A DNA stretch of 64,000 nucleotides, taken from positions 124,001 through 188,000 of the forward strand of contig PHAR01000002.1 of the NCBI GenBank assembly GCA_002840405.1, in the 5' to 3' direction. This stretch comes from Deltaproteobacteria bacterium HGW-Deltaproteobacteria-8. GTDB lineage: Bacteria; Desulfobacterota; Desulfovibrionia; Desulfovibrionales; Desulfovibrionaceae. The position numbers were made by a program, and so were the translations under genes. Below are positions 34,464 to 64,000 of this stretch, piece after piece. A model generated the notes under the pieces. It made no database searches, had not been told where the DNA came from, and worked only from the letters and a program-made list of their open reading frames with translations. Numbering within the stretch: position 1 is the stretch's first letter; each line of letters starts with the position of its first letter.

Positions 34464-34826
34464 TTAGGCCTCCTCTGTCACGGGAGCGGGAGCGGCTTCA
34501 GCAGCAACGGGAGCAGCGGCAGCAGCGGCGGGAGCGGCCTCGGCCAGACGGACGGTGACGAACTTGAAGATGCCGTCCGTGATGCGGACGTTGCGCTCCA
34601 GTTCGGCCACGAGCGCGCCGGGGGCGTGGTACTCGAGGCGGACGTAGTGGCCGCGCGTCAGCTTGCGCACGGGGTAGGCCAGGGTTTTGATGCCCCAGTC
34701 ATCGACGAGGGTCATGTTGCCCCCGTCGCGCTCGATGATTCCGGTGAGATTCGTCAGAATCTCCTTGCGGTTTTCTTCCGCCAGTTCCGGACTCAGGAGC
34801 AGCAGAGTCTCGTAGTTGTTGAGCAT
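34464..34826 (-). CDS. rpsF: 30S ribosomal protein bS6
   Basis: A 120-residue S6 that pairs with S18 in the 30S platform. The core NNYETLLLLSPELAEENRKEILTNLTGIIERDGG and KLTRGHYVRLEYHA are typical; an Ala/Pro/Glu-rich tail of about 27 residues follows. The ATG at 34826 is preceded by AAAGGAG; upstream in-frame codons are not used. The leader contains two small hairpins (34841-34852 and 34852-34869), which could be part of S6:S18 autoregulation, and a promoter at 34887-34915. Confidence 0.96.
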   Translation of the reverse strand: MLNNYETLLLLSPELAEENRKEILTNLTGIIERDGGNMTLVDDWGIKTLAYPVRKLTRGHYVRLEYHAPGALVAELERNVRITDGIFKFVTVRLAEAAPAAAAAAPVAAEAAPAPVTEEA

Positions 34827-34886
34827 GTAAATCTCCTTTTGGGCTTTGGCCCTTCCCACACAGGGGAAGAGCAAGGTAGAGGGGTG

Positions 34887-34915
34887 CTCTTACTGGCTCA
34901 TTGCGGTGATGTCAA
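34887..34915 (-). promoter_or_regulatory. Probable sigma-70 promoter of rpsF-rpsR-rplI-dnaB
   Basis: On the minus strand TTGACA (34910-34915), a 17-bp spacer and TAAGAG (34887-34892). The -35 box overlaps the final TGA of the small UGA ORF ending at 34912, so the ribosomal operon begins immediately after it and need not be co-transcribed with purC. Confidence 0.65.
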
Positions 34916-35067
34916 GCCCCATCGGAGTCCTTGCGCTTGTCGGGCGTCTCCCAGACGTCCGGTGGCCGGGGCATTCAGCCCCGCATGCCGAACTTGGGCA
35001 AAATCACCCCCACGTAGAGGAAAACGACTCCCGCGAGGACGAGCAGGAACAGTATGTTGTCCCACAT
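34912..35067 (-). CDS. Putative small membrane selenoprotein B (in-frame TGA at codon 31)
   Basis: Fifty-one codons if the TGA at 34975-34977 is read as selenocysteine. The ATG at 35067 follows GGAG nine bases upstream. Residues 3-24 form one hydrophobic helix (NILFLLVLAGVVFLYVGVIL), followed by PKFGMRG, the TGA, and the polar tail MPRPPDVWETPDKRKDSDGA ending at a TGA stop. A stem of eight pairs with one mismatch follows the TGA (34941-34961) with a GGG loop at nucleotides 23-25, which fits a bacterial SECIS. The partner ORF A (35089-35247) aligns around the TGA: Gly -1, Pro +2, a basic residue at +3, Trp +8 and Pro +11. An ATG directly after the TGA could start a 20-residue peptide, but it has no ribosome site. 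Function unknown. Confidence 0.7.
34941..34961 (-). promoter_or_regulatory. SECIS-like hairpin of ORF B
   Basis: Counting from the base after the TGA, bases 14-16 pair with 32-34 and 18-22 (CGTCT) with 26-30 (AGACG), with an A/C mismatch between the two helices and a GGG triloop at 23-25. Bacterial SECIS elements need a short stem-loop about 15-37 bases downstream with a G at or next to the start of the loop; this meets both conditions. Confidence 0.6.
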
Positions 35068-35088
35068 GCTGAAATTCTCCGAGTCGGA

Positions 35089-35247
35089 TTATTTGTCTGG
35101 CCCGCTCTTGTCTTTCTTCTCATCATCCTTGGGCGGCGTCCAGCCGCACTGCTTCTTGGGGCCTCAACCCCCGCCCATGCCCGGCATCAGGCGCGACATG
35201 GCGTACCAGGCCACCACCACGGCCAAAAGAATCCATACGGCGTCCAT
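35089..35247 (-). CDS. Putative small membrane selenoprotein A (in-frame TGA at codon 28)
   Basis: Fifty-two codons if the TGA at 35164-35166 is selenocysteine. The ATG at 35247 has a strong AAGGAG site that overlaps the purC stop, so translation after purC is expected. Residues 2-17 (DAVWILLAVVVAWYAM) form a single membrane helix, then SRLMPGMGGG, the TGA, and a hydrophilic tail GPKKQCGWTPPKDDEKKDK ending SGPDK and TAA. The tail keeps a single Cys five residues after the TGA. There is no start codon between the TGA and the TAA, so the tail can only be made by read-through. A SECIS-like hairpin lies at 35131-35149. The layout (one helix, GGGU motif, charged tail) recalls eukaryotic SelK/SelS, but I claim no homology. 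If the TGA is a stop, the product is only a 27-residue membrane peptide. Confidence 0.72.
35131..35149 (-). promoter_or_regulatory. SECIS-like hairpin of ORF A
   Basis: Bases 17-21 after the TGA (GCGGC) pair with 27-31 (GCCGC), and 15 pairs with 33 across a U/C mismatch. The loop is UGGAC (22-26). Loop position and the mismatch below a 5-bp upper stem match the hairpin of ORF B, although the stem sequences differ. Confidence 0.55.
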
Positions 35248-35256
35248 GAGAGCTCC

Positions 35257-36165
35257 TTACAGGCCCAGCTCGCGCCCGGTGAGCAGGCGGAAGGCCTCCA
35301 GGTACTTGGCCCTGGTCTGGTCGATGATGTTCTGCGGGATCTTGGGCGCTGGCGGGCGCTTGGTGAACTTGATGTCCTCCAGCCAGTCGCGCAGGAACTG
35401 CTTGTCAAAGCTCTGCTGTCCACGCCCAGGCGCGTAGTCGCTCATGGGCCAGAAGCGCGAGGAGTCCGGGGTCAGCACCTCGTCGATGAGAATGAGCTTC
35501 TCCGCGCCGTCTTCAGCCACGGTGCCGAACTCGAACTTGGTGTCCGCGATGATGATGCCGCGCCCCTCGGCGTAGTCTCGCCCGGCGGAGTAGATGGAGA
35601 GCGCCAGGTCCTGGGCCTGGCTGGCCAGGTCCCCTCCGGTGATGCGCATGGCCTCGGCAACCGAGATGTTCTCGTCGTGCGCGCCCAGTTCAGCCTTGGT
35701 GGACGGCGTGAACAGCGGCTTTTCGAGCTTGTCCGACTCGCGCAGGCCAGCGGGGAGCGTATGCCCGCTGACGCTGCCGGTCTTCTGGTAGTCTTTCCAG
35801 CCACTGCCGGTGATGTAGCCGCGTACGATGCATTCGATGGCCAGGGGCTTGGCCCGGCGCACGAGCACCGCGCGGCCATCAAGAAGATCCGCGTGGGCCT
35901 GCAGGGGCTTGGGGAAGTCGCGCACGTCCGTGGCCAGCAGATGGTTGGGCACCAGCTTGGCGAATTTCTCCATCCAGAACAGGGTGATCTGGTTCAGCAC
36001 CACGCCCTTGTGCGGGATGGGGTCGTCCATGATCACGTCAAAGGCCGAGATGCGGTCCGTGGTGATGATGAGCAGGCTGTCCGGGCCGGTCTCGTAGATG
36101 TCGCGCACCTTGCCGCGCGAGAGCAGCGGGAATTCGGTGAGCGCTGTGGTGGTGACGGTTTGCAT
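35257..36165 (-). CDS. purC: Phosphoribosylaminoimidazole-succinocarboxamide synthase (SAICAR synthetase)
   Basis: ATP-dependent ligation of aspartate to CAIR in purine synthesis. The 302-residue enzyme shows LLSRGKVRDIYETGPDSLLIITTDRISAFD, ECIVRGYITGSGWKDYQKTG, GIIIADTKFEFG and the C-terminal LIDEVLTPDSSRFWP. The ATG at 36165 follows CGGAG. It lies 52 bp after hisD, and its TAA overlaps the ribosome-binding site of the small selenoprotein-like ORF A. Confidence 0.96.
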   Translation of the reverse strand: MQTVTTTALTEFPLLSRGKVRDIYETGPDSLLIITTDRISAFDVIMDDPIPHKGVVLNQITLFWMEKFAKLVPNHLLATDVRDFPKPLQAHADLLDGRAVLVRRAKPLAIECIVRGYITGSGWKDYQKTGSVSGHTLPAGLRESDKLEKPLFTPSTKAELGAHDENISVAEAMRITGGDLASQAQDLALSIYSAGRDYAEGRGIIIADTKFEFGTVAEDGAEKLILIDEVLTPDSSRFWPMSDYAPGRGQQSFDKQFLRDWLEDIKFTKRPPAPKIPQNIIDQTRAKYLEAFRLLTGRELGL

Positions 36166-37680: not shown

Positions 37681-39165
37681 CTAGAAGAAGTAGTTCAGGC
37701 CCACGCCAAGCTTGTAGGCGTTGCTGCTCTTGTAGTTCTTGATGTCCGCAGCGTTGGAGACGTTTGAGTTGCCCCAGACGTCCTTGTCGAAGTTGGCGTT
37801 GATGTAGCCGGTGTACACCAGCAGGGTCAGATCGTCATAGATCTTGTAGCGGCTGTTGAAGTCCACTTCCCACAGGGAGTCCTTGGTGGTCAGGAAGCCT
37901 GCGTATTTGGCGTTCTGCACGGTGCCGCCGCTCTCGTAGAGGTAGCTCTTGTCGTTGGTGCCCTTGGCATAGAGCAGGTTGAAGTCGTGGGAGAGCTTGT
38001 CGATCAGCTTGATGTTCTTCAGGGAGAGGCCCGCAGCCCAGTAGCCGAGGGTGTTGCTGGTGTAGCCAGCAGTGTTGTTGATGGAGCCGCCAAGCTCCAG
38101 GCGCTCGCCGAAGAAGAAGGAGCCGATGGTCCAGTTCTGGGGCGTGCCGAGCACGGGCATGCGGTCAGAGGTGCCGCCCTTGGTGCTGTTTCCATTTTCA
38201 CCTGAAGAGTAGGCGAAGAAGAGCTCGGGGGTCATCATGGACAGGCCGGTGTAGTCCACGGCGACATCAAACAGGAAGCCCTGGCGGCCGCCTTTTCCGT
38301 TCTGCGCGCTGGGGTTGTTGTACGTGGCCTTGCCGTAGTTGAAGTCACCCATGAACTTGAAGTTGTCCAGAGCGGTGACAGTGGCGGCCACGCCACCCCA
38401 GTAGCTGCGCAGGCCCTGACCGGCGGAGCTGTTCGGACCGGCAAAGCCAGCCGTGGAGGGAGCGCCGACGCCGGAACCGGCAGTGTCAGCGCCTGCGTTG
38501 GCGTAGGCCGCGAACGGGGTGATGGTCGCGCCCTTGAAGGTAATGGGCAGCGCGGCGAAGACCACGTCGGTGGCGGTGCCGGAGCCGCTGAGGTTTCCGG
38601 CCGTGGTGTTGTAGGAGCTGTTGGCGTCGTACGGGCGGGCATAACCGGCCAGGAGGGAGACATTGTCCGTGAGCGGAGCGCTCACCACGGCGGCGGACAC
38701 CTGGTCGTCCAGGATGGCGCTGCCGCCGCCAAAGGCTGCGGGCAGAGTCATGGTCTGGAAGCCGAACTTGAGGTTCACCAGGGTGTTGGGGAAGCGGTAT
38801 TCAATGTAGCCCTGGCGGAGCATGATGTTGCCATTGCCTGCGGAGTTGGCGCCAGTGGCAGTGGATGCGGCACGGCCAGCGCCGATGCTGTACAGTCCGT
38901 TGCCCCAGTTGGCCGCGCCTATCTGGGTGTCCAGGACGGCGCGCAGGTTCTCATTGGCGATGAAGTGGAACTGTTGGCGCAGCTTCTGCTCAACGTTGAC
39001 GGTCTTGTCCTCGCTGGTAGAGCCTTTGCCAAGGAAATCCCAGCCCTGCTTGAACTGAGCCTCGATCCACCAATAGCCCTTGGCCTTCACTTCCATGCCA
39101 AAGGACAGACTTGCCGAAGCAATAAGAAGAAAAGCGACCAGTCCGAGAACACCAAACTTTTTCAT
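37681..39165 (-). CDS. Outer-membrane porin A (paralogue of porins B and C)
   Basis: A 494-residue outer-membrane beta-barrel of the type common in Desulfovibrio. The first 23 residues are a Sec signal peptide (KKFGVLGLVAFLLIASASLSFG). The mature protein has alternating aromatic and polar strands and ends in Phe (YKLGVGLNYFF), as expected for Bam-inserted barrels. Internal segments are shared with porins B and C: FIANENLRAVLDTQIG, ANWGNG and LWEVDFNSRYKIYDDL. A GGAGGGG site precedes the ATG at 39165. It is the most divergent of the three. The function is probably general diffusion; pore selectivity is unknown. Confidence 0.85.
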   Translation of the reverse strand: MKKFGVLGLVAFLLIASASLSFGMEVKAKGYWWIEAQFKQGWDFLGKGSTSEDKTVNVEQKLRQQFHFIANENLRAVLDTQIGAANWGNGLYSIGAGRAASTATGANSAGNGNIMLRQGYIEYRFPNTLVNLKFGFQTMTLPAAFGGGSAILDDQVSAAVVSAPLTDNVSLLAGYARPYDANSSYNTTAGNLSGSGTATDVVFAALPITFKGATITPFAAYANAGADTAGSGVGAPSTAGFAGPNSSAGQGLRSYWGGVAATVTALDNFKFMGDFNYGKATYNNPSAQNGKGGRQGFLFDVAVDYTGLSMMTPELFFAYSSGENGNSTKGGTSDRMPVLGTPQNWTIGSFFFGERLELGGSINNTAGYTSNTLGYWAAGLSLKNIKLIDKLSHDFNLLYAKGTNDKSYLYESGGTVQNAKYAGFLTTKDSLWEVDFNSRYKIYDDLTLLVYTGYINANFDKDVWGNSNVSNAADIKNYKSSNAYKLGVGLNYFF

Positions 39166-39268
39166 GCTGCTTACCCCTCCACGAAATATTGTCGTCTCCA
39201 CGGAAACGATGTGAGTAAGCACTTGCTAATTGAATCCGCAAGGAAAATCAAGGTGAAAATGACCGGTT

Positions 39269-39284
39269 GTACAAAAAACTTTAC
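39269..39284 (-). promoter_or_regulatory. Degenerate porin-upstream element (porin A)
   Basis: GTACAAAAAACTTTAC, 104 bp upstream of the porin A start. It keeps the GTA...TAC ends and AT centre of the palindromes found upstream of porins B and C at almost the same distance. Confidence 0.35.
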
Positions 39285-39297
39285 TTTGAAATAGAGA

Positions 39298-39323
39298 GGG
39301 GCCGGAGCGAAAGCTCCGGCCCC
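39298..39323 (-). terminator. Terminator of porin B gene
   Basis: A perfect 11-bp stem GGGGCCGGAGC/GCTCCGGCCCC, whose loop is GAAA on the + strand and TTTC on the porin B transcript, followed on the minus strand by TCTCTATTT. It lies 31 bp after the porin B stop. Confidence 0.75.
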
Positions 39324-39354
39324 AGGAAGGCGTCAGGTGGTAATGAATGGAATG

Positions 39355-40842
39355 CTAGAACGCGTAAGTGACGTTCAGGCCAGCGCGGTAGGCGTTGTTG
39401 CTGCCGAAGTTCTTGATGTCAGCAGCGTTGCTGGCCTTGGAAGCGCCCCACACGTCCTTGTCGAAGTCGGCGTTGATGTAACCCAGGTCCAGGTTGATCG
39501 CCAACTCGTCATACATCATGTACTTGGTGTTGAAGTCCACTTCCCACAGGGAGTCCTTGTCGGTCAGGAAGCCGCCGTAGACAGCGCCGTTGGAAGAAGA
39601 GGTCGTGAGGTTGGTCTCACTGAGGAACCTCTTGTCGTTGGTGCCCTTGACGTACAACAGGTGGGCAGTGTGGGTCAGCTTGTCGACCAGCTTGATGTCC
39701 TTCAAGGACACGCCAGCGGTCCAGAAGCCCATGACGTTCTGGACGTAGCCAGCGTTCTGGGGGAAGCCGTTGATGAAGCTGCGGTTGCCGAAGAAGAAGG
39801 AGCCGACAGCCCAGCTCTGAGCCTTGCCCAGGTGGGGCATGCGGTTGGAACCGTCCTGGCCACCATCGGTGGAGTTGCCCTTCTCACCCGAGGAGTAGAC
39901 GAAGAAGGCGGACGGGGTCATCATCTTCAGACCGGTGTAGTCGACGGCGATGTCGGCCAACCAGCCGGAGCGGCCGTTGTTGCTGGTATTGGTGGGAACG
40001 TTGTAGGTAGCCTTGCCGTAGTTGAAGTCAGCCATGAACTTGAAGTTGTCCAGAGCGGTGACCGTGGCGGCAACGCCACCCCAGTAGCCGCGCAGGCCCT
40101 GGCCGGCGGTGCTGTTCGGGCCAGCGAAGCCAGCGGCAGCAGCGGCGCCGTTGCCGTTGACGGACTTCTCACCGACGTTGGCGTAGGCCGCGAACGGGGT
40201 GATGCTGAAGCCCTTCAAGCTAACAGGCACAGCAGCGAAGACCACGTCGGCGGAGGTGCCGTCGCCGGAGAGGGTGCTTCCCGTGGTGTTGTACGAGCTG
40301 TTGGCGTCGTACGGGCGGGCGTAGCCAGCCAGCAGCTTCACGCTGTCGGTCAGCGGGGCGGACACGACTGCAGCGGCGATCTGGTCGTCCAGGATGGCGC
40401 TGCCGCCGCCAAAGGCTGCGGGCAGGGACACGGTCTGGAAGCCGACAAGGAAGTTGACCTTGGTGCCGGGCCACTTGAAGTCAACATAGCCCTTGCGCAG
40501 CATGACGTTGCCGTTACCGGCAGCGGCGCCGCCAGCAGCTGTGCTCGCAGCACGGCCAGCGCCGATACCGAAGGCGCCATTGCCCCAGTTCGCGGTACCG
40601 ATCTGCAGGTCGAGGACGCCTTTCAGGTTCTCGTTGGCGATGAACTGGAAGGCGGTGCGGACGCGCTGTTCAATGTTGAACTGCTTGTCTTCGCTGATGC
40701 CGCCCTTCTTCAAGAAGTCGGCGTTCTGCAGGGTCGCATCAATCTGCCACTTGCCGGAAGCTTTGATTTCGGCGGCGGAAGCCGTCGCAGCCACGCCCAG
40801 GACCATCAGTCCGAGCAAGGCGATCGCGTAAATCTTTTTCAT
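39355..40842 (-). CDS. Outer-membrane porin B
   Basis: A 495-residue porin with signal peptide KKIYAIALLGLMVLGVAATASA, cleaved before AEIKASGKWQID. It shares long stretches with porin C, such as QLQ-type strand segments, GNVMLRKGYVDFKWPGTKVNFLVGFQ, and the central GVAATVTALDNFKFMADFNYGKATYN also seen in porin A. The C-terminal residue is Phe (AGLNVTYAF). The ATG at 40842 follows AGGGAAGG. It has its own terminator and an upstream AT-rich element, so the three genes are independently transcribed. It probably arose by tandem duplication with later divergence in loops. Confidence 0.87.
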   Translation of the reverse strand: MKKIYAIALLGLMVLGVAATASAAEIKASGKWQIDATLQNADFLKKGGISEDKQFNIEQRVRTAFQFIANENLKGVLDLQIGTANWGNGAFGIGAGRAASTAAGGAAAGNGNVMLRKGYVDFKWPGTKVNFLVGFQTVSLPAAFGGGSAILDDQIAAAVVSAPLTDSVKLLAGYARPYDANSSYNTTGSTLSGDGTSADVVFAAVPVSLKGFSITPFAAYANVGEKSVNGNGAAAAAGFAGPNSTAGQGLRGYWGGVAATVTALDNFKFMADFNYGKATYNVPTNTSNNGRSGWLADIAVDYTGLKMMTPSAFFVYSSGEKGNSTDGGQDGSNRMPHLGKAQSWAVGSFFFGNRSFINGFPQNAGYVQNVMGFWTAGVSLKDIKLVDKLTHTAHLLYVKGTNDKRFLSETNLTTSSSNGAVYGGFLTDKDSLWEVDFNTKYMMYDELAINLDLGYINADFDKDVWGASKASNAADIKNFGSNNAYRAGLNVTYAF

Positions 40843-40938
40843 GTTTCCTTCCCTCTTTTGCGGTTGCGAAAAACCACCCTCAGCCATTCTTGATCCAAGA
40901 CCTATCAAAAAGAAATGACAGGATCAAGGGGAAACAGC

Positions 40939-40967
40939 ACTAAAAGTAAAAATTTTTTTACCGTACG
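40939..40967 (-). promoter_or_regulatory. Porin B promoter region with AT palindrome
   Basis: The near-palindrome GTAAAAATTTTTTTAC (40946-40961) lies 104 bp upstream of the porin B start. By position it matches the spacer of the porin C promoter; the flanking TTTAGT could be a -10 box, while the -35 equivalent (CGTACG) is poor. Confidence 0.45.
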
Positions 40968-41005
40968 GATTTTTGTATTTCTGGTTTGCCACGCGGCGCG
41001 TGGAC

Positions 41006-41038
41006 AAAAGAAAAGGGCCGACGCTCTCGCGTCGGCCC
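41006..41038 (-). terminator. Terminator of porin C gene
   Basis: A perfect 10-bp stem GGGCCGACGC/GCGTCGGCCC whose loop is TCTC on the + strand and GAGA on the transcript. It is followed on the minus strand by TTTTCTTTT. Classical intrinsic terminator 24 bp after the porin C stop. Confidence 0.85.
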
Positions 41039-41061
41039 CGTGGTCAGGCTTGTGGTAGGGT

Positions 41062-42537
41062 CTAGAAGCTGTAGTTGACGATCAGGCTGGCCTTGTAGGC
41101 GTCATTGCTGCCGTAATTCTTGTAGTCGGAATTGACGGCGCCCCACACGTCCTTGTCGAAGCTGGCGTTGATGTAGCCCAGCTCAAGGCCAAGGGAGAGT
41201 TCGTCGTAGATCTGGTACTTGGAGTTCACGTCAACTTCCCACAGGGAGTCCTTGGTGGTCAGGAACGAGCTGTAGTCAGCGCCGCGGACGGTGCCGCCGG
41301 TCTCTTTCAGGTAGTCCTTGTCATTGGTGCCCTTGAAGTAGATCAGGTGCACGGTGTGGGACAGCTTGTCGATGAGCTTGATGTCCTTCAAGGACAGGCC
41401 CAAGGCCCAGTAGCCCATGGCGGTGGAAGGAGCGTTGATGTTGGCGTTGATGGCGTCGCCACCCTGCAGCCAGAAGGAGCCCAGAGCGTAGTTCTGGGGG
41501 TTGCCGACGACAGGCATGCGCTCGGACTTGCCATTGCCGTCGGTGCTGTTTCCGCTCTCACCGCTGGAGTAAGCGAAGAACACGGAGGGGGTCATCATCT
41601 TCAGGCCGGTGTAGTCAACAGCGATGTCGGCCAGGAAGCCCTGACGGCCGCCGGCTGCAGCGTTGGTGGCGCTCTGGTTGTTCCAGGTGGCCTTGCCGTA
41701 GTTGAAGTCAGCCATGACCTTGAAGGGATCAAAGGCGGTCATGGTGAAGGCGGCGCCGCCCCAGTAGGCGCGCACGCCTTCTCTGGAGGAGGAGTTGGGA
41801 GCCATGAAGCCATAGGTGGCAGTGGCGCCAGCGCCGGAGCCGGCAAGCTGGGAGCCAAGGTTGGCGTAGGCAGCCCAAGGCTGGATCTTGAAGCCCTTGA
41901 ACATGTCGATGTTGGCGATCAAGAAGGCAACGTCGCCAGCGTTATGGGAACCGCTGAGGCTGGAGGCAGTGGTGTTGTAGCTTCCGTTGCTGTCATAGAG
42001 ACGGCCAAAGCCGCCAACCAGGGACAGGCCATCGGTGATGGGCACGACAGCCGCAGCAGCGGCGAAGTGGTCGTCAAGAACCGGGCTGCCGCCGCCGACG
42101 GCGGAGGGCAGGGACAGGCTCTGGAAGCCGACGAGGAAGTTGACCTTGGTGCCGGGCCACTTGAAGTCAACATAGCCCTTGCGCAGCATGACGTTGCCAT
42201 TGCCGGCAGCAGCGCCGCCAGCAGCGGTGCTCGCGGCACGGCCAGCGCCGATGCCGAAGGCGCCATTGCCCCAGTTCGCGGAGCCGATCTGGGTCTCGAG
42301 GACGCCTTTCAGGTTCTCGTTGGCGATGAACTGGAAGCCAGTGCGCACGCGCTGAGCGATGTTGAAGGTCTTGTCTTCGCTGACAGCGCCCTTTTTCTGG
42401 AAGTCCCAGCTGGAGTTCAGGTCGGCTTCGATCTGCCAGCTACCGAAGGCTTTGATGTCGGCTGCGGAGGCGCTGGTGACGGAACCCATGACGAGGGCGG
42501 CCATCAGCACCAGGAGCAGTGCAAATTTCTTGTTCAT
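41062..42537 (-). CDS. Outer-membrane porin C
   Basis: A 491-residue porin with signal peptide KKFALLLVLMAALVMGSVTSASA, mature start near ADIKAFGSWQIEAD, and C-terminal Phe (ASLIVNYSF). It is closely related to porin B over the segments FQFIANENLKGVLETQIGSANWGNGAFGIGAGRAAS and GNVMLRKGYVDFKWPG, and less so in the predicted loops. The ATG at 42537 follows AAGGAAGG. A well-formed promoter with a palindromic spacer lies 110-135 bp upstream. Such proteins are usually among the most abundant outer-membrane proteins in the group. Confidence 0.87.
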   Translation of the reverse strand: MNKKFALLLVLMAALVMGSVTSASAADIKAFGSWQIEADLNSSWDFQKKGAVSEDKTFNIAQRVRTGFQFIANENLKGVLETQIGSANWGNGAFGIGAGRAASTAAGGAAAGNGNVMLRKGYVDFKWPGTKVNFLVGFQSLSLPSAVGGGSPVLDDHFAAAAAVVPITDGLSLVGGFGRLYDSNGSYNTTASSLSGSHNAGDVAFLIANIDMFKGFKIQPWAAYANLGSQLAGSGAGATATYGFMAPNSSSREGVRAYWGGAAFTMTAFDPFKVMADFNYGKATWNNQSATNAAAGGRQGFLADIAVDYTGLKMMTPSVFFAYSSGESGNSTDGNGKSERMPVVGNPQNYALGSFWLQGGDAINANINAPSTAMGYWALGLSLKDIKLIDKLSHTVHLIYFKGTNDKDYLKETGGTVRGADYSSFLTTKDSLWEVDVNSKYQIYDELSLGLELGYINASFDKDVWGAVNSDYKNYGSNDAYKASLIVNYSF

Positions 42538-42644
42538 CCGTTTCCTTCCTTTGATAAGAGTTCCTACACGAGCCTGAACCACGTTACGAGTCGTTTACTA
42601 GCCTTTCTCGAATTATTATTCAAGGTCGTAAAGGGCACTTTTCA

Positions 42645-63845: not shown

Positions 63846-64000
63846 GTGACCAGACTTTTCCGCCACCTGCCCGCCGTGGACCAGTGCCTCAATGCCCTGG
63901 CAGCGGACCAAGGCCGCCAAACAAAGGCCCTGCAAGGCGTGCCGCGCCCGCTCATCAAGGATCTGGTGAACGCCTTTCTCGACCTCGTGCGTGAGGAGAT
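63846..64000 (+). CDS. selA: L-seryl-tRNA(Sec) selenium transferase, 5' part only
   Basis: PLP enzyme that converts seryl-tRNA(Sec) to selenocysteyl-tRNA(Sec). Only the first 51 residues are in the window. They match the SelA N-terminal domain: LFRHLPAVDQCLNAL then PRPLIKDLVNAFLDLVREE, comparable to E. coli SelA LYSQLPAIDRLL...LLRQMLDEARE. The GTG at 63846 follows TTGGAGG. The gene continues past the window end. Its presence supports reading the TGA codons at 35164 and 34975 as selenocysteine. Confidence 0.85.
   Translation, partial: MTRLFRHLPAVDQCLNALAADQGRQTKALQGVPRPLIKDLVNAFLDLVREE

Follow-up and report, generated by a model that had tools for sequence, protein, structure and literature searches.

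Short membrane proteins whose reading frame crosses a UGA near codon 30 appear to form a family that extends across the Desulfobacterota, a large and mostly anaerobic phylum, and the probability that this UGA is read as selenocysteine (Sec) is, in our estimate, about 94%; this value applies to the selenoprotein reading and not to the mechanism considered further below. In the decoding that we propose, SelB and tRNA-Sec would insert Sec at this codon, directed by a hairpin just 3' of the UGA. Two members, ORF A and ORF B, are located in tandem on the minus strand of the window, i.e., the whole 64,000-nucleotide stretch of DNA that was analysed (Table 1). The original prediction had described both as single-pass selenoproteins, a view that is supported, with the membership of A being secure, its Sec insertion resting on comparison, and the function of B being doubtful.

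Both ORFs encode a membrane helix at the N-terminus, followed by an in-frame TGA and then a polar tail. Reading through the UGA yields MDAVWILLAVVVAWYAMSRLMPGMGGGUGPKKQCGWTPPKDDEKKDKSGPDK* for A and MWDNILFLLVLAGVVFLYVGVILPKFGMRGUMPRPPDVWETPDKRKDSDGA for B, the latter ending at a further TGA. Coordinates, strand, starts, TGA positions and final stops of both had been given correctly from the outset, and the ungapped match between them around the TGA (Gly at -1, Pro at +2, a basic residue at +3, Trp at +8, Pro at +11) is real. Missed at that stage were the Cys located six residues past Sec in A and absent from B, the SECIS-type hairpin described below, and the setting of the pair in the minus-strand gene order purC-A-B-rpsF. 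Judged by their sequences, we take the flanking ORFs to be purC (SAICAR synthase) and rpsF (ribosomal protein S6). The purC/rpsF interval is, by tblastn synteny, the usual site of the family gene in Desulfovibrionales, and this setting is uninformative about a redox role. In front of rpsF lies a promoter-like element whose TTGACA box contains the TGA stop of B; the box is kept in 8/8 congeners examined, with or without B. A consensus promoter scan of positions 34700-35400 reported no promoter, and an Rfam scan of the window gave a tRNA as its sole match. Ordinary gene finders would truncate both A and B at the internal TGA.

Table 1. Features of the tandem pair, its neighbours and the selA start, in window coordinates.
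Feature	Position	Strand	Description
ORF A	35089..35247	minus	52-residue predicted single-pass selenoprotein, Sec at codon 28, Cys at 34
Predicted Sec-UGA codon, ORF A	35164..35166	minus	
SECIS-type hairpin of A	35133..35147	minus	GCGGC-UGGAC-GCCGC; 19-33 nt from the U of the UGA
ORF B	34912..35067	minus	probable tandem paralogue, predicted Sec at codon 31, without Cys, final stop TGA
Predicted Sec-UGA codon, ORF B	34975..34977	minus	
Weak SECIS-like hairpin of B	34945..34957	minus	CGUCU-GGG-AGACG; 5 pairs, candidate
purC (presumed SAICAR synthase)	35257..36150	minus	9 bp upstream of A; start approximate; synteny by tblastn
rpsF (presumed ribosomal protein S6)	34464..34826	minus	synteny by tblastn
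Promoter-like element before rpsF	34887..34915	minus	TTGACA-N17-TAAGAG; pattern in 8/8 congeners examined
Start of selA	63846..64000	plus	cut by window end; PF12390, E 8e-9

Two samples of 247 genomes each, one of the order and one of the phylum Desulfobacterota, with a few genomes common to both, were searched for relatives. The read-through form of A matched 58 of the 247 order genomes at E<=0.01, with three rows of this search (L072, L073, L076) not belonging to the family once their DNA was read. The search with B matched three distant loci that were also matched by A (G105, G234 and G244; E 4e-6 to 0.006), so that A and B are probably paralogues. A profile of a 61-member family alignment (A1) found matches in 104 of the 247 phylum genomes, and among the 69 loci fetched from these matches four were unrelated and one was misread. 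The profile of a 70-member alignment (A3) extended the tally to 106/247 phylum genomes, comprising about 65 whose DNA was read as members, one (G350) that was unrelated and the rest taken from tables, and to 127/247 order genomes, with member DNA read for about 80 and the rest again from tables; in the order tally at least one row (G238) is false, and seven genomes in which a member was read (G004, G015, G078, G080, G109, G148, G207) are missing.

Among the 125 distinct members that were read, a set that excludes the B of the window, the site codon is TGA in 124 and Cys in the remaining one (L043 in G213), the one clear Cys homologue at the Sec position. TAA or TAG was found at the site in none of the 125, and on our reading all 105 phylum rows at E<=1e-5 with the A3 profile carry TGA. 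Members measure about 44 to 69 residues, with a tail of 14-39 residues past Sec. The surroundings of Sec are of the LPKLGxxTU type in most phylum members (core motif LP[KR]-x-G-[VI]-x-T-U, then mostly Cys five residues on) and read GGGUGP in ORF A and its kin. The first Cys after Sec is placed at +5 to +7 in 113/124 members and further on in seven; four have none, i.e., L038 (a B copy), L069 (which has CU, as does L187), and L116 and L122, both without any Cys. At seven loci in one genus the Cys is shifted to a GGCG near the C-terminus, with TGA present on reading. L190-L193, from one genus, display CPTU (CxxU) in reversed order with a tail that has no Cys, and are a probable second paralogue. 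In one member (L139:944-1150, minus) the Sec region seems to have been duplicated internally, giving two UGA codons in frame. L189, matched weakly by the profile (E 2e-4), is a Cys-rich small membrane protein with GGMGCCGGGH and CC at the site from G426, a genome that also carries a Sec member; it is a doubtful further Cys form and may instead have no relation to the family.

Rows without a counted stop that were read mostly have a TGA just outside the aligned part, the exceptions being L043, L189 and six loci judged unrelated (L125, L127, L129, L133, L188, L194). These six were set aside by eye as not belonging to the family, as were L044, L047, L048, L072, L073 and L076. L047 (G090), a weak B-search row with TGA (E 0.018), was unlike the family when read, and L188 (G238) is a weak profile match, probably by chance, to a longer protein with GIDTCKATPACRLEDG that presumably resembles the carbon-starvation protein CstA. 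L002-L005 were dropped as weak own-genome rows, and L108 was not counted owing to a wrong reading offset, although the A3 profile scores it at E 2.7e-8. L035-L037 and L039-L041 repeat loci already counted, and the fold set does not include L051. A peptide-pattern scan of genome contigs gave no match besides L035 and L036, which we take to be L008 and L007 once more.

The Sec machinery is at hand in the genome of the window. The start of selA had been placed at 63846, and the Pfam match agrees with this (Table 1); NCBIfam gave no match for the 51 selA residues inside the window. SelB lies about 3 kb past the window end, and tRNA-Sec is present. Across the phylum sample, tRNA-Sec was found at E<=1e-11 in 213/247 genomes, and among the other 34 SelB is over the cut-off in 23, leaving 11 with neither (three of them less than 85% complete); the family occurs in 0 of these 11. 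Thirteen family-bearing phylum genomes of the A1 tally are without tRNA-Sec and were dismissed as counter-evidence, since SelB is over the cut-off in all 13. In the order, where a best E above 1e-12 counted as no tRNA-Sec (26 genomes; 18 by the tool's gathering score) and SelB absence was judged at E<=1e-60, 22 of the 26 are also without SelB and the family is in 0 of these 22; the order carriers without tRNA-Sec, G038 and G066, both have SelB. The family is thereby present in 127/225 Sec-competent vs 0/22 Sec-less order genomes (Fisher p=4e-8, kinship ignored; p=9e-6 when genus g2 is excluded) and in 105/236 (G350 excluded) vs 0/11 phylum genomes (Fisher p=0.002, kinship ignored). Of the 22 order genomes without Sec machinery, 11 belong to genus g2, and the family is in none of the 47 sampled genomes of that genus, Sec-competent or Sec-less. 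One check proposed with the original prediction was whether homologues have UGA or Cys at the aligned site: in sel-bearing species such homologues were found (TGA in 124/125, Cys in one), and TGA homologues, which in genomes without the Sec machinery would speak against Sec, occur in none of the 33 sampled genomes (22 of the order, 11 of the phylum) that have neither tRNA-Sec nor SelB.

A bacterial SECIS search had likewise been suggested, and a covarying hairpin was found just downstream of the UGA. In A this element has 5 bp, lies within the codons for CGWTPP and is nearly invariant among close relatives, for which reason the covariation evidence comes from other phylum members; owing to its position, part of the apparent protein conservation past Sec may serve the RNA. 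In the B counterparts of L008 and L009 the hairpin scan favoured a hairpin other than that of the window's B. This simple scan covered 129 UGA-started windows, with loop starts limited to 15-31 nt from the UGA, and placed the loop start at 19-28 in 127/129 and stems of 5-9 pairs in 116/129, many of the loops being AGGU, GGA or GUC. The SECIS of E. coli fdhF has a similar UGA-loop distance and loop. Covariation was measured on 51 ungapped phylum sequences (50 distinct), chosen by Cys position, and the 6-bp stem register was selected because it paired best on these very sequences. In this stem 70.0% of cells are paired vs 53.7±1.9 in shuffles, both sides are changed in 54 cells vs 24.4±4.2, and covariation amounts to 0.426 vs 0.207, values that 0/500 shuffles reach; a register slid by 1-3 columns gives a covariation of at most 0.187. 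The number of pairs with both-side change (6 vs 5.4 shuffled; 220/500) and of further pair types (18 vs 15.8; 52/500) is not above shuffles, so that three of five measures exceed all 500 shuffles, and 30% of the cells are unpaired. RNAalifold proposed no pair on the 51-sequence alignment, which mixes at least two hairpin registers. Fold energy shows a modest excess over synonymous controls (mean z -0.6, negative in 98/129).

Two other fates of the UGA have to be weighed against Sec insertion. If the TGA were a normal stop, the product would be a membrane peptide of about 27-30 residues, and the tail would be a re-initiated ORF or untranslated RNA. Re-initiation is suggested by an AUG directly after the UGA, and hence Met as the next residue, in 34/124 members and likewise in B. 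The early argument that no restart is possible is borne out for A, which has no in-frame ATG, GTG or TTG past the TGA, and the ATG immediately 3' of the TGA in B limits it to A. Against a normal stop also speak the Cys found downstream in the same frame in 120/124 members, the lack of TAA and TAG at the site, the absence of the family from the sampled genomes without Sec machinery and the covariation of the hairpin, and we judge this alternative to be very improbable. The UGA might otherwise be read through by a near-cognate tRNA-Trp or by general suppression, as stop-codon read-through does occur in bacteria; the co-occurrence of the family with SelB or tRNA-Sec, the hairpin, and the Cys in the clear non-UGA homologue leave this explanation with hardly any weight. 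An accidental stop was also considered and rejected.

Within the pair, A would be the working copy and B a tandem duplicate without the resolving Cys, which might act with A or another thiol, or be on its way out. Intact B counterparts are present 3' of A in L008, L009 and L010. L031 and L055 have a second ORF that shares an ATGA overlap with the end of A and retains the Cys. No B was found in L006 and L007, B contains two in-frame TAA codons in L011, and its TGA is gone in L012. The function of B is doubtful, since it has no Cys and is lost, broken or without TGA in 4/8 congeners examined. Before the TGA, pN/pS is 0.32 for A (five congeners) and 0.19 for B (three); in the tail it is 0.57 and 0.64, respectively, and the weak tail values are perhaps due to RNA constraint too. 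B alone could be a dying pseudogene whose inherited TGA is no longer decoded, as suggested by its losses among congeners, the missing Cys and the tail value of 0.64. Its intact state in the window, L008 and L009, the pN/pS of 0.19 before the TGA and the 5-bp hairpin that remains in the window copy argue for the contrary, and such decay seems to us possible, if rather doubtful. The B of the window is probably still a protein, under relaxed constraint, and tandem copies of which one is without the resolving Cys may provide a Sec/Sec-Cys pair at the membrane.

Hydropathy and charge counts are the support for a single N-terminal transmembrane helix with a cytoplasmic C-terminus. The C side of the helix has a higher net charge than the N side in 117/125 sequences and a lower one in 0 (G105 counted twice). 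Given the established positive-inside rule, the helix is predicted to be oriented N-out/C-in, with Sec and the lysine-rich tail on the cytoplasmic face. The selenol could there attack an oxidised substrate at the membrane surface, such as peroxide, polysulfide or a protein disulfide; the tail Cys would resolve the oxidised Sec as a selenenylsulfide, which we infer to be intramolecular from the changing position of the partner Cys among members, and thioredoxin would then restore the selenol/thiol form. We lean slightly towards such a redox mechanism served by thioredoxin. Thioredoxin-fold genes adjoin 7/87 loci, from six taxonomic families (248 neighbouring ORFs), a link that was noticed post hoc, with an expectation of 0.5-0.7 derived from PF00085 counts and assumed gene totals; the other 80 of the 87 loci have no thioredoxin neighbour. 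Most purC-rpsF loci are missing from the 87, and five of the 87 were afterwards considered misread or outside the family. As for the early suggestion of redox or membrane-stress proteins, it is the redox part, rather than the more conjectural membrane-stress part, that is favoured by the Sec/Cys pair and by the minority of loci with thioredoxin neighbours.

The main rival to a redox role is that Sec and Cys do not cycle in redox chemistry and act as ligands of selenide or of a metal or metalloid (Hg, As, Cu, Fe). A weak resemblance points in this direction: the FeoB-associated Cys-rich membrane proteins of PF12669 share the tiny N-terminal helix and the Gly-rich tail with Cys, and 7/61 A1 members match this family at E<=0.1 (best E 0.0055), with none listed for the 70 of A3. 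The scores are weak throughout, two members examined in detail giving 13.6 and 14.3 bits, which do not reach the cut-off of 27 bits, and PF12669 proteins typically have a multi-Cys tail without Sec. The gene directly 5' of the selenoprotein gene is of the ArsR-type HTH kind at L113 (by Pfam), and relatives of that gene precede L114 and L118. Several of the selenoproteins listed in the available part of a recent review are also metal-linked (PMC13188914). As there is usually one Cys beside Sec, and as the thioredoxin neighbours suggest reversible oxidation, we consider metal or selenide binding unlikely. The best reading of these sequences is that the family comprises nearly Sec-only, membrane-anchored selenol/thiol redox proteins that face the cytoplasm.

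Pfam and NCBIfam (release 20.0), searched with single proteins and with every A1 and A3 member, offered no convincing fit, the best NCBIfam match having an E of 0.011, which is not significant. Prokaryotic selenoproteins were counted as 119 families in 2026, and in the accessible portion of that review, whose Table 1 gives no lengths, no entry matches a tiny single-pass U-x(4-6)-C protein by name, domain or motif; the catalogued proteins resemble ours in that Sec is often near Cys, with a hairpin just past the UGA (PMC13188914). The main texts, as available and with supplements and figures excluded, of PMC1914089, PMC9312934, PMC8318568 and PMC2398784 contain nothing resembling the family, and a literature search, with preprints and most subscription papers outside its coverage, found no description of it. 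The family is very probably a new one, in the sense that it is not in the lists searched, the nearest candidates being compared by name, domain and motif. According to the available text on deep-Sep, Cys homologues seem to exist for all known selenoproteins, and selenoproteins without them may be missed by the method (PMC12013277), whereas a single clear Cys homologue is found here. For Salidesulfovibrio onnuriiensis IOR2, the same source lists 10 selenoprotein genes as known and 0 as new (PMC12013277); this genome appears to hold two members of the family (L031, by inferred identity).

Nearest in layout are SELENOK and SELENOS, which, in the parts of the sources at hand, share the single N-terminal helix, the cytoplasm-facing tail and the lack of a thioredoxin fold (PMC10650576, PMC3628699), whose Gly/Pro/basic segment near Sec may have a counterpart in the GGGUGP of ORF A and its kin, most phylum members having the LPKLGxxTU type there; for SELENOS, a Sec-Cys selenylsulfide with thioredoxin as the proposed donor is described (PMC10650576). 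Sec is second or third from the C-terminus in these proteins (PMC10650576) and 14-39 residues away in ours, for which reason the family is not a SELENOK/SELENOS member, and its hairpin lies inside the coding sequence, as in bacteria and unlike in the eukaryotic proteins. The likeness would be one of layout, and homology is not claimed. That a phylum-wide, almost Sec-form-only family, found in none of the sampled Sec-less genomes and including a tandem pair, represents an independent bacterial counterpart of SELENOK/SELENOS is a view that we hold with moderate confidence.

If the selenoprotein reading is right, a widespread Desulfobacterota family, present in about two in five genomes of the phylum sample, would join the catalogue of selenoproteins. 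It would also mark a blind spot of methods that depend on Cys homologues, and gene finders presumably lose very short ORFs easily. A family that exists almost entirely in the Sec form would furthermore bear on why some anaerobes retain the costly Sec system.

Two minor observations concern gene surroundings. At L113, a thioredoxin gene is located downstream of the selenoprotein gene. Elsewhere in the window, positions 37681-42582 of the minus strand hold three ORFs in tandem that resemble one another, are 506-517 residues long and have signal-peptide-like starts; we take these to be possible outer-membrane porins.
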